A stretch of 43,726 nt of DNA from Planctomycetota bacterium (GTDB lineage Bacteria > Planctomycetota > Phycisphaerae > Sedimentisphaerales > Anaerohalosphaeraceae), in NCBI GenBank assembly GCA_022705405.1, contig JAKJEN010000005.1, positions 1 to 43,726 on the forward strand. Reading direction: 5' to 3'. This document shows, piece by piece, positions 7,685 to 39,330 of this stretch. Position numbers and translations under genes: made by a program. Under the pieces are notes generated by a model that was given only the letters and a program-made list of their open reading frames with translations, was not told where the DNA came from and ran no database searches. Each line of letters opens with the position of its first letter. Position 1 is the stretch's first letter.

Positions 7685-9076
7685 ATGTCCAGGTATATAT
7701 TCCCATGGCTGATACCGATGCTGCTTACGGCAGCAGGGGCAGGTCTGCTTCTGGGGTGGATTTATTCCTATTATTCCTATACGACCCTGCCGCGTTTGCC
7801 GGGCCAGGACGGCCGGCCGACATCCGCTGTCGCCGGCGAAACTTCTGATCAGCGAAAAGGAACCCTTCAGTTGTTTGATGGATCGCCTTCTTCGGCGACG
7901 GCGTCCTGGCCGGCGTTTCGCGGGCCTAATTATGACGGGATCAGCCCTGAAACTGTGTCGCTGATTCGATCCTTTCCGAAAGAGGGGCCGAAGAAGTTGT
8001 GGCGGATTTCACTGGGCGAAGGATATGCCGGAGCGGCAGTGAGGCACGGTCGGGTGTATGTGATTGATTATGACGCGGCGGCGCAGGCGGATGCGATCCG
8101 CTGTTTTTCATTGGACGACGGCCGAGAGATTTGGCGCTATAGTTATTCGGTGGCGATCAAGCGCAACCATGGGATGAGCCGCACAACGCCGGCGGTGGAT
8201 GATAATTTTGTAGTGACCATCGGGCCTCGATGTCAGGCGACCTGTCTGGATGCAAAAACGGGCGAGTTTAAATGGATGATTGATCTTGTCTCTCAATACG
8301 GCACAAAAGAGCCGCTGTGGTATGCCGGTCAATGTCCGCGGATTGAAAACGGTCGTGCAATAATCGCCCCGGGAGGCCGCTGCTTAATGATGGCGGTGGA
8401 CTGCCAAAGCGGACAGGTTGTCTGGCAAACGCCCAATCCGGACGGCTGGCAGATGACTCATTCTTCCATTTTGCCGATCCCGTACGCCGGCGGGCGGATG
8501 TATGTGTATTGCGCTGTTGGGGGCACAGCCGGGGTCTCGGCTGCCGATGGAGAACTTTTGTGGAAAACGGATGTCTGGACGCTGCGAATCAATGTGCCTT
8601 CGCCGGTTTGGCTGGGTAGCGGACAGATCTTTTTCTCCGCCGGCTATAATAAAGGGAGTATGAAACTTCAATTGAAAGAATCCGGCGCACAGACGACCTC
8701 GGAAGTTATGTTCTCGCTGGCTCCGGAGGTTTTTGGGGCGGATCAGCAGACACCGATCTTTTATGAGGGCTTTCTGTACGGAGTCCGTCCGAATGGAGAG
8801 ATGGTCTGTCTTGACGGCGATGGGAATATCGTATGGAGCAGCGGAAGCCAGACCAAATTCGGCTTAGGACCTTATATCATAGCGGATGGGATGATTCTTG
8901 CGCTCAATGACGACGGCGTTTTATCATTACTCGAAGCGCGCAGCGACAAGTATGTTTTCCTGGACAGCGCAAAGGTTCTGGAAGGGCCGGAAAGTTGGGG
9001 GCCGCCGGCGCTGGCTGAGGGACGGCTGATTGTTCGCGATATTCATACAATGGTATGTCTGGATCTGAGGCAATAG
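7685..9076 (+). CDS. Membrane-anchored PQQ-like beta-propeller protein
   Basis: The 463-residue protein has one N-terminal membrane helix (about residues 7-30) and then a PQQ-like/BamB-like propeller. The propeller opens with a WPAFRGPNYDGIS signature and contains repeated DAKTGEFKW, DCQSGQVVWQT and DGDGNIVW blades. The signature recurs in two other propellers of this region (12333-14090 and 18051-20501). In this family the fold usually serves as a protein or ligand scaffold, and quinoprotein dehydrogenase activity cannot be assumed because no calcium/PQQ active-site set was identified. It likely faces the periplasm. The gene precedes the redox operon by 92 bases in the same direction, and its own ribosome binding site is weak. 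Confidence 0.8.
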   Translation: MSRYIFPWLIPMLLTAAGAGLLLGWIYSYYSYTTLPRLPGQDGRPTSAVAGETSDQRKGTLQLFDGSPSSATASWPAFRGPNYDGISPETVSLIRSFPKEGPKKLWRISLGEGYAGAAVRHGRVYVIDYDAAAQADAIRCFSLDDGREIWRYSYSVAIKRNHGMSRTTPAVDDNFVVTIGPRCQATCLDAKTGEFKWMIDLVSQYGTKEPLWYAGQCPRIENGRAIIAPGGRCLMMAVDCQSGQVVWQTPNPDGWQMTHSSILPIPYAGGRMYVYCAVGGTAGVSAADGELLWKTDVWTLRINVPSPVWLGSGQIFFSAGYNKGSMKLQLKESGAQTTSEVMFSLAPEVFGADQQTPIFYEGFLYGVRPNGEMVCLDGDGNIVWSSGSQTKFGLGPYIIADGMILALNDDGVLSLLEARSDKYVFLDSAKVLEGPESWGPPALAEGRLIVRDIHTMVCLDLRQ

Positions 9077-9168: not shown

Positions 9169-10197
9169 GTGAAAGACAGATTCGGTAAAATAAACAACGG
9201 GTCGGCGGCGGTACTGCTTGCGATTGGGGCGTTTGCCGCCGGATTTACCGGCTATGTACTGCTGGATCGGGCCAATCATTCGGGGAAGAGAGCAGGGGCG
9301 GACTATCGGTATCCGATTGAAGAACTGGCTAAAATTGATCCTGCGAAGATTCTTTATCGGCAGGTTGGGACTGCGATTGAAACGGGGATGGAGTCGGCCG
9401 CAGCGATAGAAGCGGACTGGGCGGGTAATTTTTATGTCGCAGGCGATCGGGCTGTCGCGGTGTTTTCAGGAGATGGAAGCAAACGACGAGATATTCCGCT
9501 GGTGTCGGAACCTACGGCGATAGGCGTCGGAGAAGACGGGTTGATTTATGCGGGGCTTTCTGATCGGATCGAGGTGTATTCGTCGGACGGGCAGCAGGTA
9601 TCGGCCTGGGCGCCGATTCACACAGCTCTGCTGACGGCGATTGCGGCGGGAAAGACAGATGTATTTGCCGCCGATGCGCTGCACAAAATAGTCCGCCGCT
9701 TTGACAAACAGGGCAATCCGCTGGGGCTGATCGGGGCCAAAGATCCCGATCGAAACATCGAGGGGATCGTTGTGCCCAGTCCGTATTTTGATCTGCTGAT
9801 CGCGCCAGACGGTTTGCTGCGTGTGGTCAATCCCGGTCGGCACCGGATTGAGGCGTATACATTTGACGGATATCTGGAATGGCACTGGGGCCGTCCGTCC
9901 GTCGGGCTGGAAGGATTCAGCGGCTGCTGCAATCCGATTGCTCTGGCGGCGCTTCCGAAAGGCGGGTATGTGACCTGCGAAAAAGGGCTGGTTCGCGTAA
10001 AGGTCTATGATGAAGAGGGAAATCTGGTCGGCGTTGTGGCCGGGCCGGATCAACTGGGCTGGCAGGAACCTCTGCGGGTATGTGAAAAACCGGAGGATTG
10101 CATCAGCCGCGGTCTGGATGCAGCGGTAGATGGGCAGGGTCGAATTTATGTGCTGGATCAATCGAAAAATGTCGTTCGGATTTTTGAAAAGAAATAA
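9169..10197 (+). CDS. Membrane-anchored NHL-repeat beta-propeller protein
   Basis: The protein has 342 residues from a GTG start. It has a membrane helix at about 9-30 and then NHL-type repeats, seen as IEADWAGNFYVAGDRAVAVF, IGVGEDGLIYAGLSDRIEVY, LIAPDGLLRVVNPGRHRIEAY and AAVDGQGRIYVLDQSKNVV. A GFSGCCNP segment near residue 250 contains adjacent cysteines, and two more cysteines occur in RVCEKPEDC, so a metal or disulfide role is possible. NHL propellers are usually binding platforms. The stop codon overlaps the next ATG by one base, which makes it the first gene of the tightly packed redox operon. The start is the least certain part: the nearest A/G-rich element, AAAGG at 9152-9156, is 12 bases away. 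Confidence 0.75.
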   Translation: MKDRFGKINNGSAAVLLAIGAFAAGFTGYVLLDRANHSGKRAGADYRYPIEELAKIDPAKILYRQVGTAIETGMESAAAIEADWAGNFYVAGDRAVAVFSGDGSKRRDIPLVSEPTAIGVGEDGLIYAGLSDRIEVYSSDGQQVSAWAPIHTALLTAIAAGKTDVFAADALHKIVRRFDKQGNPLGLIGAKDPDRNIEGIVVPSPYFDLLIAPDGLLRVVNPGRHRIEAYTFDGYLEWHWGRPSVGLEGFSGCCNPIALAALPKGGYVTCEKGLVRVKVYDEEGNLVGVVAGPDQLGWQEPLRVCEKPEDCISRGLDAAVDGQGRIYVLDQSKNVVRIFEKK

Positions 10198-10463
10198 TGA
10201 TGACACAGAGAAACAGGATACAAAAACAGAAAGACGGCCGCCTTCAGGTCTCTCGCCGCGGATTTATAACCTCCGCGTGCCGGGCCGCCGCGCTGGCCGC
10301 GCTGGGCGGACTGGGGGCGGTCCTGGTTTTCAAACGAATTCGTCTGGAGCAGGAAGGCATGTGTCCTGATCCGTCCGGACTGGCCCCTTGCGGGGAATGC
10401 CGGGCGTACGCAAATTGTTTATTGCCGCGGGCGGTTTCGACCAGGAAAGGAGGACAAAAATGA
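10197..10463 (+). CDS. Small Tat-signal protein with four-cysteine motif
   Basis: This is an 88-residue protein. Its N-terminal half is a twin-arginine signal (SRRGFI at 19-24, then a hydrophobic Ala/Leu/Gly helix to about 45). The short mature part carries Cys56, Cys65, Cys68 and Cys74 in the spacing C-x8-C-x2-C-x5-C. That could hold one small metal site or contribute ligands to a cluster shared with a partner. Tat export suggests folding with a cofactor before export. It is translationally coupled on both sides: one base shared with the NHL gene and an ATGA overlap with the ferredoxin gene. I know no named family for it; its conserved position between an NHL propeller and a NapG-like ferredoxin would be the best clue to function. 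Confidence 0.75.
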   Translation: MMTQRNRIQKQKDGRLQVSRRGFITSACRAAALAALGGLGAVLVFKRIRLEQEGMCPDPSGLAPCGECRAYANCLLPRAVSTRKGGQK

Positions 10464-11020
10464 GCGATCAAAACGTTCCGTTATCGCGACGGCAGATTTT
10501 ACGGGATGGGCTGTGGACCGCTTCTTTGACGGCCTGCGGAGCGGCCGGCGCGGCGCTGGCGGCTCTGAGCAGGCGGGATTCCTATGTCTGGCAAATCAAT
10601 CCGCACAAGTGCATCGGCTGCGATCGATGTGCGACGCATTGCGTACTCAGCGAGTCGGCCGTCAAATGTGTGCATGCGTATTCGATGTGCGGATATTGCG
10701 ATCTGTGTACCGGCTATTTTGATCCGGATCCCAAGTCGCTGGATACAGGGGCCGAAAACCAGTTGTGCCCGACGGGGGCTATCCGCCGCCGGTTTATTGA
10801 AGAGCCGTATTTTGAGTTTACGATTGATGAAAAACTCTGCATCGGCTGCGCCAAATGCGTTGTGGGATGCTCGGCGTTCGGCAACGGGTCGCTGTTTCTT
10901 CAGATTCGCCATGACCGCTGCCTCAACTGCAACGAGTGCGCGATTGCCCGGGTTTGTCCGTCGCAGGCATTTGTGCGGGTTCCCAGTCGGCAGCCCTATT
11001 TGATGAAAGATCAGATATGA
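10460..11020 (+). CDS. Tat-exported ferredoxin with four [4Fe-4S] sites (NapG-like)
   Basis: The 186-residue protein has a Tat signal (SRRQIL at 9-14 plus a hydrophobic helix to about 36). The mature region is dense in cysteines: C51xxC54xxC57xxxC61, C77xxC80xxC83 with C103-Pro, C127xxC130xxC133xxxC137 and C154xxC157xxC160 with C166-Pro. This is the pattern of four [4Fe-4S] clusters seen in NapG/MauM-type periplasmic ferredoxins, which receive electrons from or give them to a NapH-type membrane partner; such a partner is encoded next. The ATG at 10460 has an excellent ribosome binding site AAAGGAGG (10446-10453) and overlaps the previous stop as ATGA. A longer in-frame start at 10388 would lie inside the previous gene and is rejected. 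Confidence 0.9.
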   Translation: MSDQNVPLSRRQILRDGLWTASLTACGAAGAALAALSRRDSYVWQINPHKCIGCDRCATHCVLSESAVKCVHAYSMCGYCDLCTGYFDPDPKSLDTGAENQLCPTGAIRRRFIEEPYFEFTIDEKLCIGCAKCVVGCSAFGNGSLFLQIRHDRCLNCNECAIARVCPSQAFVRVPSRQPYLMKDQI

Positions 11021-12336
11021 AAAAATCGGCTGCAAAGACGCTGATTGTCCTGATCATTCTGTTTTGGACCGGCTTGGCCGGCGGGGTTCGACGGCTTCCG
11101 CCTCCGCAGTTTGAGACCGACTACCAAATTCCGACGGCGACCGAACCGCCGCCTCGGATGAGCGTCTGGGACCCGGCGGATGTCGCTGTGCTGTTCGGTG
11201 CGCTGCTGTTGAGCTCGTGGCTGACGCTGAAAAAACGCAGCCGTCGCTGGATCGTGGGGCTGATGATTTTCAGTTTGGCGTATTTTGGTTTTTGGCGGAA
11301 GGGCTGTATTTGTCCCATCGGCGCTGTCGGCAATGTGTCTTTGTCGCTGTTTGATCCGTCCTATGCGCTGCCGGCTGCGGCGACGGCGTTTTTCCTGCTG
11401 CCGCTGCTGGCGGGCTTGTTTTTCGGTCGGGCTTTCTGCGGGGCGGTCTGTCCGCTGGGGGCCATTCAGGATCTGGTAGTCCTGCATCCGCTGATGGTGC
11501 CGGGCTGGATGGAGACGGCTCTGCGTCTGGGGGCCTGGCTCTATTTAGCGCTGTCGGTTTTGTATGCGGCTACCGGCAGCGGGCTGCTGATCTGCCGGTA
11601 TGATCCCTTTATCGCGTTCTTCCGTCTGAGTCCCAATTCGCTGCTGTGGCTGCTGGGGCTTTTGTTTTTGGCGGTGGGAGTTTTCATCGGTCGGCCGTAT
11701 TGCCGATTTGTCTGCCCTTATGGTCTGCTGCTTCGACAGGCGGGGCGGCTGTCGCGCCGTCATGTGACGATTACCCCCGATGAGTGCATTCACTGCCGGC
11801 TGTGCGAAGATGTTTGCCCCTTTGGCGCGATTGATAAGCCGACTGCTCACTGGCCGGCGGAAATTTTTGCGCGCGACCGAAGGCGAATGATTTTTTTGTT
11901 TGTTCTGCTTCCTGTTCTGGTCGCCGTGGGCGGCTGGATCGGTTATCGGGTTCATCCGGCGCTGGCACAGGGAAACCCGACTGTGGCTCTGGCCCGTCAG
12001 GTGCAGGAAATGGAATCCGGACGAATGACTGAACTGACCGATCCGATCAAAGCGTTTCATACCACCGGCACAAGCGTCGGGGCGCTCTATGCCCAGCGCG
12101 ACCAGGTTCTCCAAAAGTTTGCCGTCGGCGGTACGCTGGTCGGCGCATTTGTGGCTCTGATCGCAGCGGGCAAATTGATCGCTGTAAGCATTCATCGTGT
12201 GCGGACTGATTATCAGGCCAACCGGGCCGGGTGCCTGTCCTGCGGGCGATGCTTTGCCTACTGTCCGCGACAGCGGATTGCGGATAAACCGGAGAGCGCC
12301 GGCAACAGAGGATCGGAGAAGGAATCTGCTGTATGA
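11017..12336 (+). CDS. NapH-like polytopic membrane ferredoxin
   Basis: The product has 439 residues and about eight membrane helices (near 5-23, 52-70, 78-93, 121-138, 167-185, 209-226, 290-307 and 368-391). Cytoplasmic-type cysteine motifs follow the NapH/NosR/RdxA pattern: C97-x-C99-Pro, C141-x3-C145-Pro and C229-x3-C233-Pro beside helices, then a [4Fe-4S] site C257xxC260xxC263xxxC267-Pro. Unusually, after a last pair of helices there is a further ferredoxin motif C406xxC409xxC412xxxC416-Pro at the C-terminus. Family members move electrons between the quinone pool or cytoplasm and periplasmic Fe-S proteins. The ATG overlaps the previous stop as ATGA, so an upstream in-frame start at 10936 is not favoured. 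Confidence 0.88.
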   Translation: MKKSAAKTLIVLIILFWTGLAGGVRRLPPPQFETDYQIPTATEPPPRMSVWDPADVAVLFGALLLSSWLTLKKRSRRWIVGLMIFSLAYFGFWRKGCICPIGAVGNVSLSLFDPSYALPAAATAFFLLPLLAGLFFGRAFCGAVCPLGAIQDLVVLHPLMVPGWMETALRLGAWLYLALSVLYAATGSGLLICRYDPFIAFFRLSPNSLLWLLGLLFLAVGVFIGRPYCRFVCPYGLLLRQAGRLSRRHVTITPDECIHCRLCEDVCPFGAIDKPTAHWPAEIFARDRRRMIFLFVLLPVLVAVGGWIGYRVHPALAQGNPTVALARQVQEMESGRMTELTDPIKAFHTTGTSVGALYAQRDQVLQKFAVGGTLVGAFVALIAAGKLIAVSIHRVRTDYQANRAGCLSCGRCFAYCPRQRIADKPESAGNRGSEKESAV

Positions 12337-14090
12337 CGGATACGAATGATCAAAAATATCTGCTTCAGCAAAATCCGTGGTACCAGGCGTCCGCAGGTTC
12401 GGCGATTGTTTCGGGGGTATTTGCCGGAATTGTCCTTACACTCCTGCTGATTCAGACCTATCATATTCGATGGACCGACCCCAAGCAGACGGACAAACTG
12501 GCCGCCTTGCGAAAAAGTTATCAGAGCGGGCCGGCGGATGAAATCCTGGCTGAGGAAATCCGCCAGAAGGATACCCGACAGCGGCGCGCTCAATATGCCC
12601 GTTTGCAGTTTGTCCATCGGGGCTCTGTGCTGTTTGTATTCTGGCTGGCGGCGTTCGTCGGTTCGCTGACATGGATGCGGTCGTTTCGACAAAAACTGCC
12701 GCATCCGGTCCGGCAGACAGATCTTTCGATCCGACAGATTCAATTTGCCGACCGCTCTCGTCTGGCTGTGGCGATGGCGCTGACGCTGCTGGGCGGCGGA
12801 GGATTGTTTGTGGCTTTGCGCCCCGGGCAGCCGCCGACAAGCGGCGCCGCCGAGCAGGAGTTTGCGACAGGCCAAGCGGAAGATCGTCCCGTCTTTGCTT
12901 CCTGGGAGCAGATGAAACAGAACTGGCCTGTATTTCGCGGCCCTGAGGGCAGCGGGGTTTGCCCGTTTGAGAAGATCCCGACGCAGTGGGATGGACCCTC
13001 CGATCAAAATATCCGCTGGAAGACGGCTGTGCCGCTGTCCGGACACAATTCGCCGATTGTCTGGGACAAACGGGTTTTTCTGACCGGCGCTTCTGAGAAA
13101 AAACAGCAGATCTTTTGTTTTGACGCTGACAACGGGTCTTTGCTGTGGAACGGCGATGTCCCCGTTTCGACAGATCCCCAGCGGAAAGAGATGAGCATTT
13201 TGGAAGAGACCGGCTATGCGGCCTCTACCGCAGCGACCAACGGCGCGTATGTAGCGGCTATCTTTGCCGATGGGCAGGTTGGCTGTTTTGATTTGACGGG
13301 TAAACGGCAATGGGTCTGTTCGCTGGGAGTTCCGGCCAGCGCCTATGGCTACGCCGCTTCGCTGACGGTTTATGAGGATCGGCTGATTATTCAGATGGAT
13401 CAGGATTATGAGCCGGGCGCCAGCAAGTTGATTGCTCTTGATATAACCAGCGGAAAAACCCTGTGGCAGACGGAACGTCCTGTGCCCAACTCATGGTCCT
13501 CGCCGACGGTTGTTCAGCTGAACGGCAGGGCGCAGATTCTCGCCAGCGGCTCGCCCTGGGTGATCGGGTACGATCCGGCAGATGGGAAGGAATTATGGCG
13601 GGTGGAATGTCTGGGCGGCGATGTGGCGCCTACCCAGGTCGTTTCGCAGGGGAAGGTCTTTGCCGTAGAACCTTATACTCACCTTGTCGCGATTGATCCG
13701 GCGGCGCCGAGCGAGGAAGGAACGCCGGGGCGACTGCTGTGGGCGGCCGAGGGAAGTATCCCGGATATTTCCAGTCCGATTGTCAGCGAGCAGCTGGTCT
13801 GGACCCTTGATACAGGAGGGACTTTGGGTTGTTATGATATTCGCGATGGAAGTAAAGTGTACGCACAGGATCTGGATGCCATGTTTCAGGCCTCCGGTTC
13901 GCTGGTTGATCAGATACTGTATTTGCAGAGTACCAAAGGAAAAATGATTCTGCTGAAGGCAGGCAGTGTGTTTGAAAAAGTGGCGGAAAATGAGCTGGGC
14001 GAAGAAATCTTTGCCTCTGCGGCCTTTGCGCCGGGACGCATTTATTTGCGCGGAACCCATCATTTGTATTGTATTGAAACCAAGCTGTGA
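12333..14090 (+). CDS. Triple-helix membrane protein with PQQ-like beta-propeller
   Basis: This is a 585-residue fusion. Its N-terminal 165 residues contain three membrane helices (about 21-43, 96-115 and 143-162). The rest is a PQQ-like propeller starting with WPVFRGPEGSGV and showing blades such as FDADNGSLLWNG, LDITSGKTLWQT and YDPADGKELWRV. The three helices make it an integral partner rather than a simply anchored propeller, so it may dock on the NapH-like protein encoded immediately upstream. The start overlaps the previous stop (ATGA), with a GGAGAAGGA-type ribosome binding site upstream. The end overlaps the next GTG start. No catalytic residues for quinoprotein chemistry were identified. 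Confidence 0.82.
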   Translation: MTDTNDQKYLLQQNPWYQASAGSAIVSGVFAGIVLTLLLIQTYHIRWTDPKQTDKLAALRKSYQSGPADEILAEEIRQKDTRQRRAQYARLQFVHRGSVLFVFWLAAFVGSLTWMRSFRQKLPHPVRQTDLSIRQIQFADRSRLAVAMALTLLGGGGLFVALRPGQPPTSGAAEQEFATGQAEDRPVFASWEQMKQNWPVFRGPEGSGVCPFEKIPTQWDGPSDQNIRWKTAVPLSGHNSPIVWDKRVFLTGASEKKQQIFCFDADNGSLLWNGDVPVSTDPQRKEMSILEETGYAASTAATNGAYVAAIFADGQVGCFDLTGKRQWVCSLGVPASAYGYAASLTVYEDRLIIQMDQDYEPGASKLIALDITSGKTLWQTERPVPNSWSSPTVVQLNGRAQILASGSPWVIGYDPADGKELWRVECLGGDVAPTQVVSQGKVFAVEPYTHLVAIDPAAPSEEGTPGRLLWAAEGSIPDISSPIVSEQLVWTLDTGGTLGCYDIRDGSKVYAQDLDAMFQASGSLVDQILYLQSTKGKMILLKAGSVFEKVAENELGEEIFASAAFAPGRIYLRGTHHLYCIETKL

Positions 14091-16456
14091 AGACGACGCC
14101 TGAAGAAAAACCGTTGGATCTTGATTTTGTAGACCGTTTGACTGCGCGGGTCGGCGCTCGGCAGTCCCAGACGCTTGTGCATCTGCATGCAATTCAGAAA
14201 GAGTATGGGTACCTGCCTCCGGAGGCGCTCCAGCGGCTCAGTGAAGCGACGAAAAGGCCGCTCGATGAGTTGTGGGGCGTGGTCACTTTTTATGACCAGT
14301 TTCGATTTACTCCGGCCGGACAGCACCAAGTTCGAGTCTGCGTCGGCACGGCCTGTCATGTCAAGGGAGCCGATCTGGTCTATGACGCGATGCGGCGGCA
14401 TTTGGAGATTGCCGAGGGAAAAGATACGGATGCTCAGCGGCTGTTTACCGTTCAGCGGGTGGCCTGTCTGGGCTGCTGTACGCTGGCTCCGGCTGTTCAG
14501 ATCGGCAATGTCACCTATGGGCATGTCAGCAGTCAGACGGTTCCGCTGATCCTTCAGGATTTTCTGGAACGTCAAAAGGCGCTTAAGAGAGGCCCGGACA
14601 AAAAAGCCGTAAAGGCGGTCCAGGAGCCGGATGGCCAGATTCGGATTGGTCTTGGCTCCTGCTGCCAGGCCCGCGGCAGCGGCAAACTGTTGGATGCCAT
14701 AGAGCAGTCTGTGGCACGGCTGTCTATTCGAGCCCGGATAAAGCAGGTCGGCTGTGTCGGGATGTGTTATCAAACGCCTCTGTTGGAACTGGCGATGCCG
14801 TCGGGGCAGACGTTTTTATATACCCGGGTCGAACCGGAGGACGCCGAGTCCATTCTGCTGAAGCATTTTTCGCCGACCGGCCGAGGGCGATTGCTGATGA
14901 ACCGAATCGGCCGCACGCTGGATCGGTTCCTGACCGATACCATTGCCGAATCGGTCAGCCGTCATCCGGTCCATGTTCGCAATCCGCAGATTGCGGATTT
15001 TCTCGGTTGTCAGAAACGAGTGGCCACTGAACACTGCGGGATAATCAATCCGCTGGATTTGGAAGAGTATAAGCAAAAGGACGGATTTGCGGCTCTTGAA
15101 AAAATACTTCGGGAGGGAACGCCCGAAGAGGCGCTGGGTCAAATTGAAGCTTCGGGTCTTCGCGGGCGGGGCGGAGCGGGCTATCCGACCTATCTGAAGT
15201 GGTCGGCGGTGCAAAAGAGTCCGGCCTCGATCAAGCGAATCGTCTGCAATGGGGATGAGGGCGATCCCGGGGCGTTTATGGATCGAATGCTGATGGAATC
15301 GTATCCGCTGCGGATTTTGGAAGGGATGATTATCGCCGCCTGGACCGTTGGAGCGAGCGAAGGCCATTTGTATATTCGGGATGAATATCCGCTGGCTGTG
15401 GAACGGATACAGGGAGCGATAGAGATCTGCCAGGCGCATGGATATCTGGGCCAGCATATTCTGGGCACGGAGTTTTCGCTGGATCTTTCGATCTGCTGCG
15501 GGGCGGGGGCGTTTGTCTGCGGGGAAGAGACGGCGCTGATGGCCAGCATCGAGGGTCGTCGACCGATGCCCCGCCTGCGTCCGCCGTTTCCGGCTCAGCA
15601 TGGACTGTGGGGATGTCCTACTCTTATCAATAACGTCGAGACCTATTCCGTTGTGCCGTGGATTCTGCGAAACGGAGGCCGGGCCCTGGCCCAGATGGGC
15701 ACGCCCCAAAGCCGGGGCACCAAGGTCTTTGCCTTAGCCGGCAAGGTAATCCGGGGCGGGCTGATCGAGGTGCCGATGGGCGCAACTGTCCGTCAGATTG
15801 TGGAGGAAATCGGCGGGGGAGTCGGCGAGGGCAAAAAATTCAAGGCCGTTCAGATCGGCGGCCCCTCCGGCGGCTGTGTGCCGGCGGAATTGTCGGATAT
15901 CTCCGTCGATTACGAATCGCTGAGCGGCGCCGGCGCTATCATGGGTTCCGGCGGTCTGGTAGCGCTGGATGAAGGCGATTGTATGGTGGATATCGCCCGC
16001 TATTTTTTGGAGTTTACCCAGCAGCAATCCTGCGGAAAATGCACCTTCTGTCGAGTGGGCGCCAAGCGAATGCTCGAAATTCTTCAGCGGCTGTGCAACG
16101 GTCAGGGACACAAGGGAGATATTGAAAGACTGGAGGAACTGGCTCGACTGATCCGTCAGAACAGTCTGTGCGGACTGGGCCGCACTGCGCCCAACCCGGT
16201 TCTTTCAACGATCGCTCATTTTCGGGATGAATACGAAGCGCATATCAACGGCCGCTGCCCGGCTAAGCGGTGCCGGGCGATGATTCATTATTCAATCAAT
16301 ACAAATTGCATCGGCTGTACGCTCTGCGCACAGCATTGTCCGGCTGAGGCCATCGCGATGCGCCCGTATGAGCGGCACGAAATAGATCCGTCCAAATGCG
16401 TCCGATGCGGGACCTGCAAAAACGTCTGTCCGGCCGAGGCGGTGGATGTGGAATAA
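14087..16456 (+). CDS. NuoE-thioredoxin-NuoF-ferredoxin fusion, NAD(P)H-oxidising subunit (HydB/HndC-like)
   Basis: The product has 789 residues from a GTG start (GTGA overlap). Domain order is NuoE-like helical plus thioredoxin-fold [2Fe-2S] (C85-x4-C90 and C127-x3-C131), a second thioredoxin-like [2Fe-2S] domain (C192 or C193 with C223-x3-C227), and the NuoF core. The core has FMN-loop GRGGAGYPTYLKW (360-372), NGDEGDPGAFMDR (388-400) and CGAGAFVCGEETAL (471-484). The NuoF [4Fe-4S] site is C649xxC652xxC655 with C695, and two [4Fe-4S] ferredoxin motifs follow (C741-C751 and C771-C781). This is the diaphorase module of complex I and of bifurcating hydrogenases, which exchanges electrons between NAD(H), FMN and Fe-S clusters in the cytoplasm. 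All expected ligands are present. No hydrogenase or formate dehydrogenase catalytic subunit is encoded nearby. Confidence 0.93.
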   Translation: MKTTPEEKPLDLDFVDRLTARVGARQSQTLVHLHAIQKEYGYLPPEALQRLSEATKRPLDELWGVVTFYDQFRFTPAGQHQVRVCVGTACHVKGADLVYDAMRRHLEIAEGKDTDAQRLFTVQRVACLGCCTLAPAVQIGNVTYGHVSSQTVPLILQDFLERQKALKRGPDKKAVKAVQEPDGQIRIGLGSCCQARGSGKLLDAIEQSVARLSIRARIKQVGCVGMCYQTPLLELAMPSGQTFLYTRVEPEDAESILLKHFSPTGRGRLLMNRIGRTLDRFLTDTIAESVSRHPVHVRNPQIADFLGCQKRVATEHCGIINPLDLEEYKQKDGFAALEKILREGTPEEALGQIEASGLRGRGGAGYPTYLKWSAVQKSPASIKRIVCNGDEGDPGAFMDRMLMESYPLRILEGMIIAAWTVGASEGHLYIRDEYPLAVERIQGAIEICQAHGYLGQHILGTEFSLDLSICCGAGAFVCGEETALMASIEGRRPMPRLRPPFPAQHGLWGCPTLINNVETYSVVPWILRNGGRALAQMGTPQSRGTKVFALAGKVIRGGLIEVPMGATVRQIVEEIGGGVGEGKKFKAVQIGGPSGGCVPAELSDISVDYESLSGAGAIMGSGGLVALDEGDCMVDIARYFLEFTQQQSCGKCTFCRVGAKRMLEILQRLCNGQGHKGDIERLEELARLIRQNSLCGLGRTAPNPVLSTIAHFRDEYEAHINGRCPAKRCRAMIHYSINTNCIGCTLCAQHCPAEAIAMRPYERHEIDPSKCVRCGTCKNVCPAEAVDVE

Positions 16457-16459
16457 AAA

Positions 16460-18022
16460 ATGATCACTCTGGCGATAGACAATCAGAAAGTGCAGGTTCC
16501 TGCGGGGACCACCGTTCTTGAGGCGGCGGAAAAATTGGGGATAGCGATTCCCACGCTGTGCCATAAGCAGGGGTTTGAACCGTCCGCCGGCTGCATGGTC
16601 TGCGTGGTTCAGATCAGCGGTTTTTCCTGGCTGATGCCTTCCTGCGGCACGCCCGCCGAAGAGGGGATGGCGGTGCAAACCGGCACGAATGAAGTAAATC
16701 TGGCTCGCCGGGCGGCTTTGGAACTTTTGTTGAGCGATCATATCGGCGATTGCGAAGGCCCCTGCCGTCTGGGGTGCCCTGCGAATATGGATATCCCGCG
16801 CATGATTCGTTTTATCGCAGAAGGCCGCGCGGACAAGGCGATTGAAATTATCAGGCGGGATATAGCCCTGCCGGCGGTACTCGGGCGAATCTGCCCGGCT
16901 CCGTGTGAGAAGGTCTGCCGCCGGGCCGCTCAGGATGCGCCGGTATCCATCCGTCTGCTCAAGCGGTTTGCGGCGGATGCGGATCTTGACGCACCCGCGC
17001 CGTATCGGCCCGTATGCAAAAAGCCCACCGGCAGGAGCGTGGCGATTGTCGGGGCAGGTCCCTGCGGGCTTTCGGCGGCCTATTATCTGGCTCAAAAAGG
17101 ACATCGCTGTGTCCTGCTGGAAAAAAATGACCAGCCGGGGGGGATGCTTCGATGCGCAGAACTAAAGGAGAAACTGCCCAGCCGAATTCTGGATCGGGAA
17201 ATCAGCCGGATTATGGATCTGGGCGTGCAGCTGCAAGGGGGCAGAGAACTGGGGCGGGATTTTTCGCTGGAGCGTCTGCAAAAAGAATTCGATGCGGTAT
17301 TTCTTGCCATAGGTCAGCCGGATCATCGCCCGCCCCTTCGGCTGCCGCTTGAAATGAACGAGAAGAAGATCGTCGCCGACCGCCGCACTTTTCGAACGTC
17401 TCTGGAAGGGATCTTTGCCGGAGGCGGGGCGCTGAGCAGTCGGCGGATGTGCGTTAAGTCTGTTGCAGACGGCAAGGAAGCGGCTGAGGCGATAGACCAG
17501 TTTCTCCGCGGTCAGCCGCCGACTGGATTCCAGAAAGAATTTAACAGCCGCTTGGGAACGTTGACAAAAGAAGAATGGAAGGTTTTTGTAAATGGCGCCG
17601 ATCCGCAGGGCCGTCTGGAACCGGACAGCCCGGGCGGCGGCTTTACCGCTTTGCAGGCCCAGAGCCAGGCCCGCCGGTGCCTGCATTGCGATTGTCGAAA
17701 AAAGAAAAACTGCAAATTACGCAAACTGTCAACCGAGCTGAAAGCCGTTTCCGGAACGTATAGCGGACAGCGCAGAGGATATTCACGGATTGACGACCAT
17801 CCGGAGGCGATTTTTGAATCCGGCAAATGTATTCAGTGCGGTCTGTGCATTCAGGTATTAAAGCGAGCGGGGCTGGGGAAAGGGCTGACCTTTCGAGGCC
17901 GCGGATTCGGCGTGCAGATTGCCGCCGCTCTGGACGGGCCCATTCTGCAGACGGCCGCTGAAGCCGCAAGGCAATGCGTTCAGGTTTGCCCTACCGGCGC
18001 CTGGTCGCTGAAAAGTAAATAA
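16460..18022 (+). CDS. NuoG/HydA-type [2Fe-2S] plus GltD-like FAD protein lacking the NAD(P)H domain
   Basis: This 520-residue protein begins with a plant-type [2Fe-2S] domain (C34, C45, C48, C62), as in NuoG and HydA. A GltD/NfnB-type Fe-S helical domain follows (C98, C102, C106, C145, C149, C153), then an FAD Rossmann motif GAGPCGLSAAYYLA (198-211). After AIGQPD (283-288) the chain reaches the closing FAD motif TSLEGIFAGGGAL (313-325) within about 25 residues. In GltD the second, NAD(P)H-binding Rossmann domain occupies that gap, so it is absent here. The C-terminus has a Cys-rich segment (C407, C410, C412, C418) and a cluster site C457xxC460xxC463 with C506 and C510-Pro. It starts three bases after the NuoEF fusion and is inferred to pass electrons to or from it. 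Confidence 0.87.
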   Translation: MITLAIDNQKVQVPAGTTVLEAAEKLGIAIPTLCHKQGFEPSAGCMVCVVQISGFSWLMPSCGTPAEEGMAVQTGTNEVNLARRAALELLLSDHIGDCEGPCRLGCPANMDIPRMIRFIAEGRADKAIEIIRRDIALPAVLGRICPAPCEKVCRRAAQDAPVSIRLLKRFAADADLDAPAPYRPVCKKPTGRSVAIVGAGPCGLSAAYYLAQKGHRCVLLEKNDQPGGMLRCAELKEKLPSRILDREISRIMDLGVQLQGGRELGRDFSLERLQKEFDAVFLAIGQPDHRPPLRLPLEMNEKKIVADRRTFRTSLEGIFAGGGALSSRRMCVKSVADGKEAAEAIDQFLRGQPPTGFQKEFNSRLGTLTKEEWKVFVNGADPQGRLEPDSPGGGFTALQAQSQARRCLHCDCRKKKNCKLRKLSTELKAVSGTYSGQRRGYSRIDDHPEAIFESGKCIQCGLCIQVLKRAGLGKGLTFRGRGFGVQIAAALDGPILQTAAEAARQCVQVCPTGAWSLKSK

Positions 18023-18050: not shown

Positions 18051-20501
18051 ATGAAACACAGGATAGAAAAAAACTTGTTATTGCGGTCGATTATATGGAC
18101 GGCGGCACTGGGCGCTACTGTGTTTGCGGCTGACTGGCCGCATTGGCGCGGCCCGGATCGCAGCGGTATTTCCGCCGAAACCAATTGGAACCCCAAGGCC
18201 CTGTCGGATTCAACCAAGCCCCTCTGGACGGCCTCTGTGGGTACGGGTTTTTCCGCTGTATCCATCGCCGAAGGCAAGGCCATCACCATGGGCAATGTCG
18301 ATAAAACAACCGATATGGTCGTTTGCCTGGATGCGCTAACCGGGCAGAGTCTTTGGACCTATCGTTATGAGGAGCCGCTGACGTCCAATATGTATGAAGG
18401 CGGCCCCAGCGCTACTCCGACAATCCACGATAAAAAAGTTTACACCGTCAGCAAAAGCGGAAAAATGCTGTGTCTGGATCTGGAGACGGGCGCGCTGATC
18501 TGGCGTCGGCAGACCGACTGCAAGAAGCCGGAATGGGGATTTGCCGGCTCGCCGGTGATTCTGGAGGAGAAAGCGATTTACAATATCGGCTCTTGCGGCC
18601 TTGCGCTGGATAAGGAGACCGGGCAGATCCTCTGGCAGAGCGGTCGGGAAGAGTCGGGCTATGCGACGGCCGTGCCGTTTACGATGGACGGCAAGACGCA
18701 GCTGGCTCTGTTCAGCAAAGAGCATCTGTACAGTGTGGATCCGGCAGACGGCAGGATTCTCTGGTCCTATCCGTGGAAGACCAACTGGGATGTCAACGCC
18801 TCCGATCCGATTCTAAAAGACGATGAAGCTCTGATTACCTCCGGCTATAACCATGGAGCGACCCTGCTGAAGATCAGCGGCTCTGAAGTTCGGTCGGTCT
18901 GGGAAAACAAAAACCTGCGGTCGCAGCTGTCCGGCCCGGTTCTGATCAACGGCTATATTTACGGAATTGATGAAAATCAGCTGGCCTGCCTGGACTGGAA
19001 GAGCGGACAGGTCCGCTGGACCGAGAAGACCGTCGGCAAAGGCAGTCTGACCGCTGCGGGGGATAAATTGATTGTCCTGAGCGACAAAGGGCGGCTGATC
19101 ATTGCTCAGGCGACGGATGAACAGTTTGCGGTTCTTTCATCGGCGCAGATTCTCAGCGGCCGCTGCTGGACGACTCCGGTTCTGGCCAATGGACTGATCT
19201 ATGCAAGGAATGCCAAAGGAGATCTTGTTTGCATTGATCTGCGCATCGCCGCCGCTGCGTCTGCGCTCGATTCAGAGCCGGTAATTACCGCGGCGGAACT
19301 GGGCGGCCGGACGGTTTCTCAAGACTGGTCCTGCTGGCAGGGCCCGGATCGTAATAACAAAAGCCCCGAGACCGGACTGCTCAAGAAATGGCCGCCGGAA
19401 GGCCCTGCGCTGTTGTGGTCGGCTGAGGATCTGGGAAGCGGGTATTCCTCTGCGTCTGTGGCGAACAAAAAAATATATGTGACCGGATTGAAAAATAAAC
19501 GGGGCGTGTTGTCGTGTCTGGACTGGGATGGAAAGCTGATCTGGACGGCCGATTACGGGCCGGAGTGGACGGGCTCCTATCCGGGCGTTCGCAGCAGTCC
19601 GGTGATTTGGGACGGCGCAGTCTATGTCGTCAGCGGAAACGGCCAGATCGGCTGCTATAGCGCTGAAACCGGCAAGGAACTGTGGGCCGCCGATCCGTTT
19701 CGCGAGTTTGAGGGCAAGATGCCGCAATGGGGTATCGCAATGTCGCCTGTGCTGGTGGAAGGCAAACTGATCTTTACCGTCGGCAGCCCCAAAGCCGCCG
19801 CGGTAGCGCTGGATGCTAAAAAAGGGCATATCGTCTGGAAATCGGCGGGTTTGGACGAGCGGCCCACGTATTGTACGCCGGCGGTGTTTCAGTGGGGCGG
19901 CCGAACCATCTTGGCCGGAATGACGCAGGCCCATCTGTTTGCGGTCGATGCCCGAACCGGAGATTTGTTTTGGAGCTATCCGATGGCCGATTATCTGTCG
20001 GGTCGAAACCGACAGATACACCCCAATACCCCGGTCTTTTGGAACGGGGGACTGCTGTTTACCAGCGGCTACGATATGGGCGCAATAAAATTTTCCATTA
20101 CGTCCGACGGCTGGACATTTCAAAAGGAGTGGACGAATGCGGAATTTGACTGCCATCATGGAGGCGTAGTCTATCAGGACGGCTATGTATATGGAACGAC
20201 CTGGAAAGGCAATGACGACGGGTTGTGGGCTTGCATCGACTGGAAGACCGGAGAAATGATGTATGCCCAGCGATGGCACAACAAGGGCTCGATTCTCTGG
20301 GCCGACGGCTTATTTTATGCGTATGCGGAAAAAGCAGGCGCTGTGGGACTTATCAAAGCCGATCCGAAAGAGTTTCAGGCGATTAGCGAATTCCTGATAA
20401 CGCAAGGGAAGGGAGAACACTGGGCTCACCCTGTAATCAGCGGCGGGCGTCTTTTTATCCGGCATGGCGAGGTCTTGATGGCGTATGATATAAAGTCATA
20501 A
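18051..20501 (+). CDS. Secreted tandem PQQ-like beta-propeller protein
   Basis: The 816-residue protein has an N-terminal signal peptide (about 1-27, ending VFAA) and two propellers in tandem. Each half opens with the same signature: WPHWRGPDRSGIS near residue 30 and WSCWQGPDRNNKSPE near residue 426. Many blades show the D-x-x-T/S-G-x-x-x-W pattern, for example LDLETGALIWRR and YSAETGKELW. With no membrane helix beyond the signal, it is predicted to be periplasmic or extracellular. AGGAG at 18040-18044 lies six bases before the ATG. It follows the flavoprotein gene by 28 bases and probably ends the redox transcript. A scaffold role is as likely as an enzymatic one. Confidence 0.85.
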   Translation: MKHRIEKNLLLRSIIWTAALGATVFAADWPHWRGPDRSGISAETNWNPKALSDSTKPLWTASVGTGFSAVSIAEGKAITMGNVDKTTDMVVCLDALTGQSLWTYRYEEPLTSNMYEGGPSATPTIHDKKVYTVSKSGKMLCLDLETGALIWRRQTDCKKPEWGFAGSPVILEEKAIYNIGSCGLALDKETGQILWQSGREESGYATAVPFTMDGKTQLALFSKEHLYSVDPADGRILWSYPWKTNWDVNASDPILKDDEALITSGYNHGATLLKISGSEVRSVWENKNLRSQLSGPVLINGYIYGIDENQLACLDWKSGQVRWTEKTVGKGSLTAAGDKLIVLSDKGRLIIAQATDEQFAVLSSAQILSGRCWTTPVLANGLIYARNAKGDLVCIDLRIAAAASALDSEPVITAAELGGRTVSQDWSCWQGPDRNNKSPETGLLKKWPPEGPALLWSAEDLGSGYSSASVANKKIYVTGLKNKRGVLSCLDWDGKLIWTADYGPEWTGSYPGVRSSPVIWDGAVYVVSGNGQIGCYSAETGKELWAADPFREFEGKMPQWGIAMSPVLVEGKLIFTVGSPKAAAVALDAKKGHIVWKSAGLDERPTYCTPAVFQWGGRTILAGMTQAHLFAVDARTGDLFWSYPMADYLSGRNRQIHPNTPVFWNGGLLFTSGYDMGAIKFSITSDGWTFQKEWTNAEFDCHHGGVVYQDGYVYGTTWKGNDDGLWACIDWKTGEMMYAQRWHNKGSILWADGLFYAYAEKAGAVGLIKADPKEFQAISEFLITQGKGEHWAHPVISGGRLFIRHGEVLMAYDIKS

Positions 20502-27116: not shown

Positions 27117-30100
27117 ATGAAAACCAGTTCTTTATTCCGGAAAATAAGGAGTTGGCTCTTGGAGGTCCGGATCTATCGGTCTATCCGGCGAAGCGGTTTA
27201 TTCGATCAGGAGTATTACCTTTATACCAATCTCGACGTAGCCCGCTCCTGTGCGAATCCGATCTGGCATTATATTCGCAGGGGGTGGAAAGAGGGCCGCA
27301 ATCCCAGCGCCTCATTCGATACCCGAAGGTATCTGCAAACCTATCCGCAAGCGCGGCAAAGCGGGATCAATCCTTTGTTTCATTATATCCAATATGGGAA
27401 AAAAGGGGGTTTTTCAACTGCTCCTCAGATCTCAAAAGAGCAGACAATTCAGAAAGAACCGTCTCCAATGCCAGTTTCTGCGCTGCGGCATCTTGCGCCT
27501 ACGATTCACTGGAGTTATCGGATCAGCGAATCGCAGCTTCTGGAGAGAGTGCGAGAATACAGGGCTCAGAAATCTTCCCGAAAAGCCAAAGTTGTTGTAT
27601 ATACAGCGATCATCGGCGGCAAGGATAACCTGATAGTCCCCGAGTATATCGTGAAGGAATGGGATTATGTTTGTTTTTCGGATATGGAAATTCCCGGCGA
27701 GCATATTTTTGAAATCCGCAGGCCGGACTATCTGGATGCCGATCCGAGGCGAACAGCCCGCTTTCTTAAAACCCATCCTCACCTGTATTTTCAGGAGTAT
27801 GTCTGCGCCGTTTGGCTGGATTCGAGCATTTTAATTCGCGGACCGCATTTGGAGACAATGGTAAATCGCTGCTTGGAACAGGACATTCTTTTTATGTGCA
27901 ATCCGCATCCAAATCGGGACTGTTTGTTTGAAGAACTGGCTAAGTGTATTCATTTAATGAAAGATGACCACAGAGTGATGAAAAGCCAGGTCAAGCGATA
28001 TAAACGGGAAGGGTACCCCAAGCAGAACGGGATGCTGGAAACCGGTATTCTGATTCGCCGACACAATGACCATCGGGTGATCGACCTGGATAATGACTGG
28101 TGGAATGAAATCAGCGGCGGCAGTTGCAGGGACCAGCTTTCGGTGATGTATGTCCTCTGGAAGCATCAGCTTCCATATACGCTAATGGAGAATATGAAGA
28201 ATATCCGCTATCATGAGGGGAACGACTATTGCCTGTTTCTTCATGAGGGCAGGTGCAATACTTTGATCCCTCCATATGTTCTGCCTTCTTTTATGAAAAA
28301 GTCAAACTCGCAGCCGTCGGCGTCTGTTTCCGGATTCGTTTCCGAAGATCTCAGGCCTCTGGAGGGCGAACGGATCGATATCGTCGTATGTGTTCATAAT
28401 GCCCTGGATGATGTGCGGCGCTGTTTGGAATCGGTTTGGGCGGCGCTGCTGTCCTCGCATCGACTCTTTTTAATCGATGATGGATCCGAGACCGCCACAG
28501 CGCATTATCTAAGACAGTTTGCCGAACGCTCCCTGGACCGGATAATTCTTATTCGAAATGACAAAACCCAAGGTTATACACGGTCGGCTAACCAAGGCCT
28601 TAAGTTAACCGACGCTCCTTTTGTAATACTGCTGAACAGCGATACTCTGGTTCCTGTCGGCTGGTCGCTCAAATTGCTGCAGGCGGCCAAATCCCTGCCG
28701 GGGACAGGGATGGTAGGGCCTCTGTCCAATGCAGCTTCCTGGCAGTCGCTTCCATGGATTTATGATTTTCAGACGGGCCAGATGGCCGTCAATGAACTGC
28801 CACCGGGTCAGGATCTCGAATCGATGAATCGTTTGTGCGAGATACATTCGGGTTATCCGAATTTTCCTCGTGTTCCGCTGATCAACGGTTTTTGTTTCGG
28901 AATTTGGAGGCAGGTTTTAGAGAAGATCGGTTATCTGGATGAAAAGGCGTTTCCCATAGGATACGGAGAAGAAGATGATCTGGCCATGCGTGCCCTGAAT
29001 GCAGGTTTTATGCATGTCATTGCAACGCATTGTTTTGTGTACCATGCCAAATCAAAAAGTTTCAGAAAAAAAGAACGAAATCAGCTGATTACGGCCGGTA
29101 GAAAAACACTATTTGAGCGATATGGAGCGCATCGCATCAATTGCAGCGTTCAGACTATGCTGAAAAATTCAATGATCCAGGCGGTTCGGCAGGCAGTCAA
29201 CAACGCCTGCGGATTGCGTCCGCAAAGCCAAACGATAAATCAAGTCGCGCCGGTTTCGGATCAAGATTCACACATTATTTTGAAAGAAGCGATCTCTACA
29301 GAACGGCTTTCCGATATTTCCGCCTTGAAATCTCTGCTCTCAGAATATAACATTCAGTTTTTTGAATTTGGCTGTTCCAAGGGCGACGGACTTTCCTGGA
29401 CAGAGCAGAAAACCGGGTACAAAGGACTGGGATTTGACACAGATCCCCAAAAATTGCAGATTGCCAGCGAAAGAGGACTGTTGTGCTGCAATCAGAATAT
29501 TCTGGACTTGCCCAATATTAAACTGGTTTCTTTTACCACGTTATTTCATTTCCTTGAACATCTGGAGTCGGTCAAACAAGCGAGGGAGTTTATTCTCAAG
29601 GCCTGCGCTGTCAGCCGAGATTATGTTTATATTCGTCAGCCCTATTTTGATGCAGATTCCTGGCTCTTTTGCATGGGATTTAAAACCTTTTATTCGCACT
29701 GGACTGGGCACAGAAACCGGATGGTCCTGCCGGATTTTTTTTATATTTTGGAAGAGTGTAGGAACGAGAATTTAATTCGCGATTATAAATTAGCCGTTAA
29801 AATGCCGATCCAGGATAGCAGCAGCCCTATGATCCACAGTCTGTCTTCTGTGAAGGATTCACTGCATTATGACCCCTGCAGCCATCCAGCAAAAAAGACA
29901 GGGGTCCCTTTTTTCTTTCCTGTTTTTTATGAAACTGTGGCCATTCTGAAGATTGGAGACAGGCAGCCGGATCTTTTATGGAAAGAATGGAGCTCGGATG
30001 CGACTGTTGTTTATGATAGTCGGAAGGGAAGAATCACCAATCTCTTAAATCCGGAAATGAAAGATATCAGTATCTTGGACGCAAACCCCACCGCGATGGT

Positions 30101-30182
30101 TTCACGACAGACGGAAACGATGAAAGTTGCTCATGCAATGATGCAGAGACCTTCGGATGAGATTCGATCATGTGGGCATTAA
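27117..30182 (+). CDS. Four-module glycan-synthesis protein: DUF616-type, GT2 and methyltransferase-like domains
   Basis: This protein has 1021 residues. Module 1 (about 28-99) has two copies of a motif ending N-P-x-x-HY-x-x-x-G, common at the N-terminus of multidomain bacterial glycosyltransferases. Module 2 (about 158-380) resembles the DUF616/TOD1-like transferase domain: KVVVYTAIIGGKD, AVWLDSSILIRG and MLETGILIRRH. Module 3 (about 420-690) is a GT2 domain with IDIVVCVHNALDDV, FLIDDGSE and ILLNSDT. Module 4 (about 745-880) looks like a SAM-dependent methyltransferase: EFGCSKGDGLSW, LGFDTDPQKLQIA and FHFLEHL. It probably builds and possibly methylates the exported glycan. The AGGAGG ribosome binding site at 27106-27111 fixes the start. 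Confidence 0.83.
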   Translation: MKTSSLFRKIRSWLLEVRIYRSIRRSGLFDQEYYLYTNLDVARSCANPIWHYIRRGWKEGRNPSASFDTRRYLQTYPQARQSGINPLFHYIQYGKKGGFSTAPQISKEQTIQKEPSPMPVSALRHLAPTIHWSYRISESQLLERVREYRAQKSSRKAKVVVYTAIIGGKDNLIVPEYIVKEWDYVCFSDMEIPGEHIFEIRRPDYLDADPRRTARFLKTHPHLYFQEYVCAVWLDSSILIRGPHLETMVNRCLEQDILFMCNPHPNRDCLFEELAKCIHLMKDDHRVMKSQVKRYKREGYPKQNGMLETGILIRRHNDHRVIDLDNDWWNEISGGSCRDQLSVMYVLWKHQLPYTLMENMKNIRYHEGNDYCLFLHEGRCNTLIPPYVLPSFMKKSNSQPSASVSGFVSEDLRPLEGERIDIVVCVHNALDDVRRCLESVWAALLSSHRLFLIDDGSETATAHYLRQFAERSLDRIILIRNDKTQGYTRSANQGLKLTDAPFVILLNSDTLVPVGWSLKLLQAAKSLPGTGMVGPLSNAASWQSLPWIYDFQTGQMAVNELPPGQDLESMNRLCEIHSGYPNFPRVPLINGFCFGIWRQVLEKIGYLDEKAFPIGYGEEDDLAMRALNAGFMHVIATHCFVYHAKSKSFRKKERNQLITAGRKTLFERYGAHRINCSVQTMLKNSMIQAVRQAVNNACGLRPQSQTINQVAPVSDQDSHIILKEAISTERLSDISALKSLLSEYNIQFFEFGCSKGDGLSWTEQKTGYKGLGFDTDPQKLQIASERGLLCCNQNILDLPNIKLVSFTTLFHFLEHLESVKQAREFILKACAVSRDYVYIRQPYFDADSWLFCMGFKTFYSHWTGHRNRMVLPDFFYILEECRNENLIRDYKLAVKMPIQDSSSPMIHSLSSVKDSLHYDPCSHPAKKTGVPFFFPVFYETVAILKIGDRQPDLLWKEWSSDATVVYDSRKGRITNLLNPEMKDISILDANPTAMVSRQTETMKVAHAMMQRPSDEIRSCGH

Positions 30183-30499
30183 ATTTCTTTGAATTAGCAA
30201 AATTTTGCTATATGGGTCAGTCAATGATATCTGCAGAGAATCTGACTTTGTCCAGTAGGAAAAGACATGGAGACATCTGCGATTTTTCGCAGGCCAAGCG
30301 CGGGGCCCGTGAGGATTTTGTCTCTTATCGAGCCGATTTAACCGCGCAGGAGGCCATCCGTATCGCATCGCTTTATGAGGAGGTAAAAAAAGAACTCCGA
30401 TTGCGGAAAATCGTTGGGGTTCAAAACGAAACCTTGTACGGCCAAGAGGGCGGGATTGGCAGCAAACGAGCGGGATTGTCGGATCAGGATATACAATAA
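30170..30499 (+). CDS. Unrecognised 109-residue protein, possibly the front half of a split gene
   Basis: I do not recognise this product. The ATG overlaps the end of the preceding gene by 13 bases. The second half, with SLYEEVKKELRLRK, has helical, coiled-coil-like character, as often seen ahead of the S-R-S-W linker segment in bacterial glycosyltransferases. Its TAA stop at 30497-30499 is immediately followed, in the same frame, by the ATG of the next gene, whose product supplies just such a linker. It may therefore be the N-terminal part of one 230-residue protein interrupted by a stop, or a coupled partner. No membrane segment or signal peptide is visible. Confidence 0.4.
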   Translation: MWALNFFELAKFCYMGQSMISAENLTLSSRKRHGDICDFSQAKRGAREDFVSYRADLTAQEAIRIASLYEEVKKELRLRKIVGVQNETLYGQEGGIGSKRAGLSDQDIQ

Positions 30500-38409: not shown

Positions 38410-38439
38410 TCCATATTTTCTTTTTCATTTTTTTGGTTC

Positions 38440-39324: not shown

Positions 39325-39330
39325 AGGTTC

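Follow-up and report, generated by a model that had tools for sequence, protein, structure and literature searches.

The DNA analysed here, a stretch of 43,726 nucleotides from a member of the Planctomycetota (hereafter the window), encodes P0001, a flavoprotein subunit resembling BfuA and StnC from which the NADP(H) domain is cleanly excised, and the excision is spread through the phylum. We propose, with reasonable though far from full confidence, that P0001 is the BfuA of a Bfu/Stn-type bifurcating complex whose NADP(H) arm is being dismantled and whose third partner is a membrane module encoded in the same gene cluster, and that the enzyme, thus rewired, probably serves electron transfer across the cell membrane. 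Among electron bifurcators the Bfu enzymes make up the fourth class, and in the survey of the family 17 BfuB clades have no assigned function (PMC9304861). No description of a Bfu variant devoid of the NADP domain was found in open-licence papers, and the putative combination of a bifurcating core with a StnC-like subunit stripped of that domain would be a Bfu/Stn-type variant previously undescribed in the literature searched. The variant is widespread, and its conserved cluster suggests a third partner on the other side of the membrane; its natural series from an intact to a dismantled NADPH arm could tell apart the requirements of bifurcation and the contribution of the input arm. The variant also suggests a way in which cytosolic NADH and ferredoxin might be connected with extracytoplasmic chemistry in bacteria that have no detectable menaquinone genes.

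Table 1. Features of the gene cluster and of P0001, in positions of the window
Feature	Position	Strand	Remarks
PQQ1, membrane-anchored PQQ-like beta-propeller	7685..9076	+	
NHL-like propeller, membrane-anchored	9169..10197	+	invariant GCCNP motif
Polyferredoxin, predicted Tat-exported	10460..11020	+	RR-x-F/L signal, 18 invariant Cys
NapH-like polytopic membrane protein	10936..12336	+	conserved Cys motifs; true start probably near 11017
PQQ2, membrane-anchored PQQ-like beta-propeller	12333..14090	+	predicted TM segments, then propeller
P0002, fused BfuC (NuoE)-BfuB (NuoF)	14087..16456	+	FMN, C1, B1-B4, B5-like site
P0001, BfuA/StnC-like subunit without NADP(H) domain	16460..18022	+	520 aa
P0001 N-terminal [2Fe-2S] domain, cluster A1	16460..16735	+	C34/C45/C48/C62; Fer2_4 7.9e-17
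P0001 DPD_II-type domain, two [4Fe-4S]	16736..16987	+	Fer4_20 3.3e-20
P0001 distal [4Fe-4S] ligands	within 16736..16987	+	H94/C98/C102/C153
P0001 FAD-proximal [4Fe-4S] ligands	within 16736..16987	+	C106/C145/C149/K168
P0001 FAD-binding Rossmann domain	17027..17509	+	residues 190-350; GAGPCGL, E221, GG227-228
P0001 junction, NADP(H) domain excised between two crossover strands	17294..17416	+	residues 279-319
P0001 cluster A3 ligands	17678..17713	+	C407, C410, C412, C418
P0001 cluster A2 ligands	17822..18013	+	C457, C460, C463, C510
PQQ3, double PQQ-like propeller	18051..20501	+	signal-like N-terminus; downstream in some loci only

Excision of the NADP(H) domain from P0001

P0001 possesses the minimum of a Bfu-family BfuA, namely the A1 [2Fe-2S] and A2 [4Fe-4S] sites (ligands in Table 1), and the ligands of A1-A3 are invariant wherever the alignment rows have letters (A1 cysteines in 74/74 aligned sequences, A3 ligands in 73/73 aligned rows). 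The cysteines of the DPD_II domain are presumably divided between its two clusters as listed, an assignment that we take from DPD homology and from the pattern of co-loss. K168 matches K170 of StnC, a lysine near the FAD-proximal cluster (PMC10482914), and is Lys in 34/34 close sequences while varying farther out; the corresponding proximal ligand of NfnB is a Glu, and C114 of StnC is replaced by I112 in P0001. The FdhF-like tail is not present, and the second cluster of the C-terminal ferredoxin-like domain, A4, is lost, as was likewise described for Thermococcus sibiricus Nfn-BfuA (PMC9304861).

In GltD and NfnB, a second Rossmann domain that binds NADP splits the FAD domain, and this hallmark is absent from P0001 by Pfam, alignment and superposition, as is that of the Type 1 Nfn-Bfu/Stn enzymes, the NADP(H) domain in BfuA/StnC. 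Pfam recognized a single FAD-type Rossmann fold in P0001 and no second nucleotide-binding domain. The motifs AIGQPD (residues 283-288, 17306-17323) and TSLEGIFAGGGAL (residues 313-325, 17396-17434) are separated by 24 residues. The closest solved relatives, Caldicellulosiruptor NfnABC (9BOV_A), Sporomusa StnC (8OH5_C) and T. sibiricus NfnA (9N5U_A), were each matched by phmmer in pieces flanking their NADP domain, and residues ~272-286 of P0001 matched 9bov_A twice, on either side of that domain. When the two halves of intact GltD-type proteins were explicitly aligned to P0001 one by one, residues 279-287 fitted the crossover strand on either side of the NADP domain, which places the removal of that domain exactly between the two strands.

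The AlphaFold model of residues 188-352 (pLDDT 77.6, pTM 0.81) superposed on StnC residues 189-500 (8OH5_C) with 163/165 residues aligned and a Z of 23.6, on 9BOV_A residues 189-501 with a Z of 24.8, and on NfnB (5JCA_L) with a Z of 24.7. In these superpositions, 160-163 residues were matched over target spans of 312-322, so that about 150-160 residues are missing from P0001. The full-length model was poor (pLDDT 45.9), and the structural support therefore covers the FAD segment of P0001. P0001 shares with NfnB of NfnAB (5JCA) and with GltD the DPD_II cluster domain and the fold of the FAD domain (Z 19-25), but differs from both in lacking the NADP(H) domain, and no NfnA or GltB partner is encoded in the cluster.

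Of 74 aligned sequences, 65 have a gap of 9-54 residues between the crossover strands and nine have one of 161-186, with none intermediate. Such a short gap might also come from an error of assembly or sequencing, or from decay of the gene into a pseudogene, and the source assembly is indeed fragmented into 323 contigs; but the same gap recurs in 65 relatives from many genomes, nearly all with uninterrupted frames, and purifying selection acts on the FAD domain (dN/dS of 0.10-0.32 within and around the window's genus, with several of the underlying synonymous distances near saturation). This explanation, whose chance we consider negligible, was rejected on account of the conserved family and the dN/dS values. 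A first-pass annotation of the window had described P0001 as a GltD/NfnB-like flavoprotein with its NAD(P)H-binding domain deleted, and Pfam, phmmer, the alignment and the FAD-segment model all agree with it; the match to the NfnB/GltD fold and the sharing of the deletion by the family, for which it had called, were both borne out. It placed the deletion at 17303-17375, which is the right spot, but the end of this span falls at about residue 306, short of the second motif. It also held that FAD and Fe-S sites are retained, as the motifs and cluster ligands in Table 1 confirm, and that electrons inside P0001 would move only between clusters and FAD, which agrees with the loss of the one domain and the keeping of these motifs. 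An NADP domain elsewhere in the chain was sought by Pfam, phmmer and the FAD-segment model, and none was detected.

The adjoining core P0002 and the place of bifurcation

P0002 joins Nuo51 FMN, SLBB (a match under Pfam's cut-off), NADH_4Fe-4S, 4Fe-4S ferredoxin and thioredoxin-like [2Fe-2S] domains in one fusion. Its nearest solved relatives are the B subunits of Caldicellulosiruptor NfnABC, Sporomusa Stn and T. sibiricus NfnABC, and phmmer aligned its BfuB part over the whole length with 9BOV_B and 8OH5_B (StnB). The B2 residues C632, H719, C724 and C729 are each conserved in 72/72 sequences, and the absence of the B2 histidine is a mark of non-bifurcating homologues (PMC9304861). All eight cysteines of B3 and B4 are likewise found in 72/72, the B1 residues in 69-72/72 (C655 in 69/72) and C670 as Cys in 62/72, and the C1 cysteines are invariant in every row with letters. 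The B5-like site comprises four cysteines (192, 193, 223 and 227), of which 192, 193 and 227 vary among relatives. Residues 192 and 227 (window 14660-14770) each appear as Cys in 18 of 29 close sequences and as Ser in the other 11; these are totals rather than row-by-row counts, and their equality suggests a joint change.

On these features P0002 is assigned to the Bfu core by the published definition (PMC9304861), with a B5 site that is variable in relatives, and the pair is predicted to belong to the Bfu family by every sequence feature tested apart from that site; for want of the NADP domain it falls outside Nfn-Bfu/Stn proper. Compared with Nfn-Bfu/StnABC (Sporomusa ovata StnC, 8OH5; Caldicellulosiruptor, 9BOV; Thermococcus sibiricus, 9N5U), the domain order [2Fe-2S], DPD_II, FAD, A3, A2 is the same, the B subunit is as in P0002, and the A4 ligands are missing as in T. 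sibiricus. P0001 differs in lacking both the NADP(H) domain and the FdhF-like C-terminal domain, and here BfuC and BfuB are fused and their gene lies with those of a NapH-like membrane module.

The first-pass annotation had associated P0001 with a NuoF fusion, rightly, as P0001 is encoded beside the NuoEF fusion P0002, and had suggested that the FAD of P0001 could bifurcate, which the present data do not support. The fold is as in NfnB (Z 24.7 to 5JCA_L), and R231 of P0001 aligns with R239 of StnC (R201 of NfnB), as an NfnB-like bifurcating FAD would have it. However, position 231 is Arg in only 24/34 close relatives, the cluster lacks an NfnA partner and P0001 a hydride donor site, two lineages have no FAD domain at all, and a capable Bfu core adjoins. 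Moreover, P0001 belongs to a StnC-like family, and the FAD of StnC, the closest one characterised, has been demonstrated not to bifurcate (PMC10482914), whereas the bifurcation signature sits in the NuoEF fusion. We consider bifurcation at the FAD of P0001 very improbable. Since the StnC FAD is non-bifurcating, bifurcation was assigned by homology to the FMN centre of P0002, and, if it occurs, it would belong to this FMN and not to the FAD of P0001.

Stages of loss and constraint across the phylum

Some match was found in 59/59 relative genomes, and full-length relatives in 33 genomes including that of the window, at about 36-66% identity. Strong matches, some of them NADP-intact, occurred in 60/298 genomes of the class and 39/392 of the phylum. 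No relative was found in viral contigs, and a search of genome contigs returned only GltD proteins of the Oscillospiraceae/Ruminococcaceae type.

The cluster loci exhibit several states. The NADP domain is excised in P0001 and at most loci, and is present with a decayed motif at two (GDGQEA and GAGQEA, no RR; L137 and L139). It is intact at L138 (GGGNTAMD...YRRT), in the cluster PQQ1-NHL-ferredoxin-NapH-BfuC-BfuB, and at L155, whose cluster is similar and whose contig begins within NapH. The FAD-proximal ligands are changed at C106, C145 and C149 in L136, L144 and L147, and at C145 and C149 only in L151, while C98, C102 and C153 are unchanged in all four; in L161 the proximal ligands are lost similarly and the GxGxxG motif is destroyed too. 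The FAD domain is gone in L159 (343 aa) and L166 (390 aa), which stand apart in the BfuB tree. These states point to an NADPH arm that may be in the course of being dismantled while clusters A1-A3 persist, where the order of the steps is read from extant states and not reconstructed. NADPH might still be a substrate, if the FAD were reduced in trans by free NAD(P)H or by another subunit with a nucleotide-binding domain, and L138 and L155 do keep a full NADP domain; but the decayed motifs of L137 and L139 leave this hardly any likelihood, as does the search of other cluster proteins, which gave no second Rossmann NAD(P) domain.

The cluster-linked BfuA proteins formed one group with support 99 when rooted on stand-alone Stn-like proteins, in trees that come from quick searches and have many weak branches. 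The quick BfuA tree required three state changes for the deletion, and in some members the linker reaches 48-54 residues. Several independent deletions, considered on these two grounds, are not required, since a single deleted clade was not rejected (AU p 0.707), and one deletion event is possible.

It could also be that the FAD arm of P0001 is a structural remnant that electrons bypass, with the chain consisting of A1-A2-A3 and the distal cluster only. Five loci without proximal-cluster ligands and two without the FAD domain, all keeping A1-A3, are as this would predict, and the relative conservation of the FAD domain is below that of intact homologues: the FAD_N/A1 identity ratio stands at 1.18 for intact sequences, a small sample of six, versus 0.83-0.86 for deleted ones, which would indicate constraint relaxed but not absent. 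Against it, the window's order retains a near-invariant GxGPxGL, D/E221 and GG together with all proximal ligands including K168 (34/34), and DPD_II is the best conserved long domain (dN/dS 0-0.11 in and near the window's genus). The FAD-domain dN/dS given above likewise indicates that this domain still matters in the window's lineage, and we regard a mere remnant as rather unlikely.

The BfuA of the window groups with proteins of the same genus (64-66% identity), and its BfuB with those of L062/L065 (67-68%, versus 60-61% to same-genus relatives). This disagreement between the two trees suggests gene exchange inside the operon.

The membrane module as a candidate third partner

At most loci, the homologues of P0001 and P0002 sit in a cluster of 7-8 genes, ordered in the window as PQQ1-NHL-Tat ferredoxin-NapH-like-PQQ2-BfuCB-BfuA-PQQ3, with short or overlapping spacing from the ferredoxin onward. 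Counted over loci with enough flanking (upstream) sequence, NuoEF adjoins BfuA in 66/71, the NapH-like gene is near it in 52/58, the Tat ferredoxin in 46/51 and the NHL gene in 26/27, and PQQ3 lies downstream in 18/58. NapH and the other module genes were found at none of the five stand-alone NADP-intact homologues. The linkage exceptions are L042, with BfuCB-BfuA and no NapH nearby, L049, L130, L146 and L153, with no adjacent NuoEF, and L046. At L049 (G002, same genus), BfuA and PQQ3 lie beside unrelated genes with no BfuCB or NapH-like genes upstream, and the locus is either rearranged or misassembled. At L136, L147, L151, L154 and L155, the NapH-like protein is short or partial and no PQQ2 is adjacent, and the BfuCB frame is N-terminally extended, to about 960-1060 aa.

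A twin-arginine signal was present on the ferredoxin in the relatives inspected, and N-terminal hydrophobic segments on PQQ1, NHL and PQQ2 in most relatives. The NapH-like protein scores far under the cut-off of the NapH NCBIfam model and is therefore called NapH-like only. The NapGH-type features comprise its invariant Cys motifs and the RR signal on the NapG-like ferredoxin; NapG is a Tat-exported ferredoxin, as in this module. The cluster propellers lack CxxCH haem motifs and an FMN-binding domain was not detected, so no terminal acceptor is evident. The NHL-like propeller is without a Pfam family and had matches in 40/392 genomes of the phylum, mainly carriers of the cluster.

Among other candidates for the third partner, [FeFe] hydrogenase was rejected, as it had no match in the window's genome (89% complete) and, though patchily present among relatives, was seen in none of their clusters. 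Complex I was likewise set aside, the window's genome giving one weak Complex1_49kDa match only. Rnf was found in most relatives. In 23/33 genomes that carry the cluster (12 of the 23 are at least 95% complete), neither MqnA/D nor MenD scored above cut-off; menaquinone is therefore probably not obligatory, though scavenged or other quinones might still serve the NapH-like module as quinol donors. NapH-like modules have been proposed as electron carriers to or from extracytosolic enzymes (PMC8238504), and the membrane module appears, from its gene neighbourhood, to be the best candidate. The NADP-intact members in the same cluster indicate that NADP(H) and the membrane module have coexisted, so that the third electron partner could be something other than the module.

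P0001 and P0002 might, alternatively, form a cytosolic Bfu complex with an unlinked soluble enzyme, the membrane genes being co-regulated yet separate. Type 2/3 Bfu enzymes do draw electrons via extra subunits (PMC9304861), and the membrane genes are not nearby at some loci; the linkage of the NapH-like gene in 52/58, the tight spacing in the window and the lack of any other redox enzyme between the genes speak against such an arrangement, which we think distinctly unlikely.

In the favoured reading, that of a Bfu/Stn-type complex with the membrane module as third partner, the FMN centre of P0002 would couple NAD(H) and ferredoxin, and electrons could follow a path FMN-B1-A1-A2-A3-distal cluster ending in P0001, such that NADH and reduced ferredoxin would jointly drive electrons outward to an acceptor outside the cytoplasm, or the flow would run the other way. 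In the lineage of the window, the FAD and the proximal cluster may have been kept as an end-of-chain flavin, which could act as a docking or exchange site for the membrane partner or as an electron buffer, and without which other lineages manage. More tentatively, as a possibility to which we give about one chance in three, the whole might be a quinone-independent membrane-bound bifurcating complex coupling cytosolic NAD(H) and ferredoxin, through a NapH-like wire and the Tat polyferredoxin, to an extracytoplasmic partner, and descended from an NADPH transhydrogenase that lost the NADP domain, the proximal cluster and finally the FAD domain in successive steps.

Sub-type I BfuB of Hydrogenedentota, reported in Planctomycetota too, carries DPD_II and a FAD/NAD(P) domain (PMC11406978) and resembles the present system in joining a GltD-type module to the Bfu core, but there the module is on the BfuB of an [FeFe] hydrogenase, whereas here it is on BfuA with no hydrogenase domain. 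NapGH/NapH-like systems (PMC8238504) share the polytopic 4Fe-4S membrane protein and differ in that here there is no FMN-binding domain, the cytosolic partner is the Bfu core, and most genomes with this module have no detectable menaquinone synthesis genes.

Elsewhere in the window, glycosyltransferase and bacterial sugar transferase genes (27117-35837) probably serve surface polysaccharide synthesis, and the minus strand at 36607-39864 encodes sulfate assimilation functions, namely a CysN/C-like GTPase with APS kinase, a PAPS reductase domain and an APS kinase.
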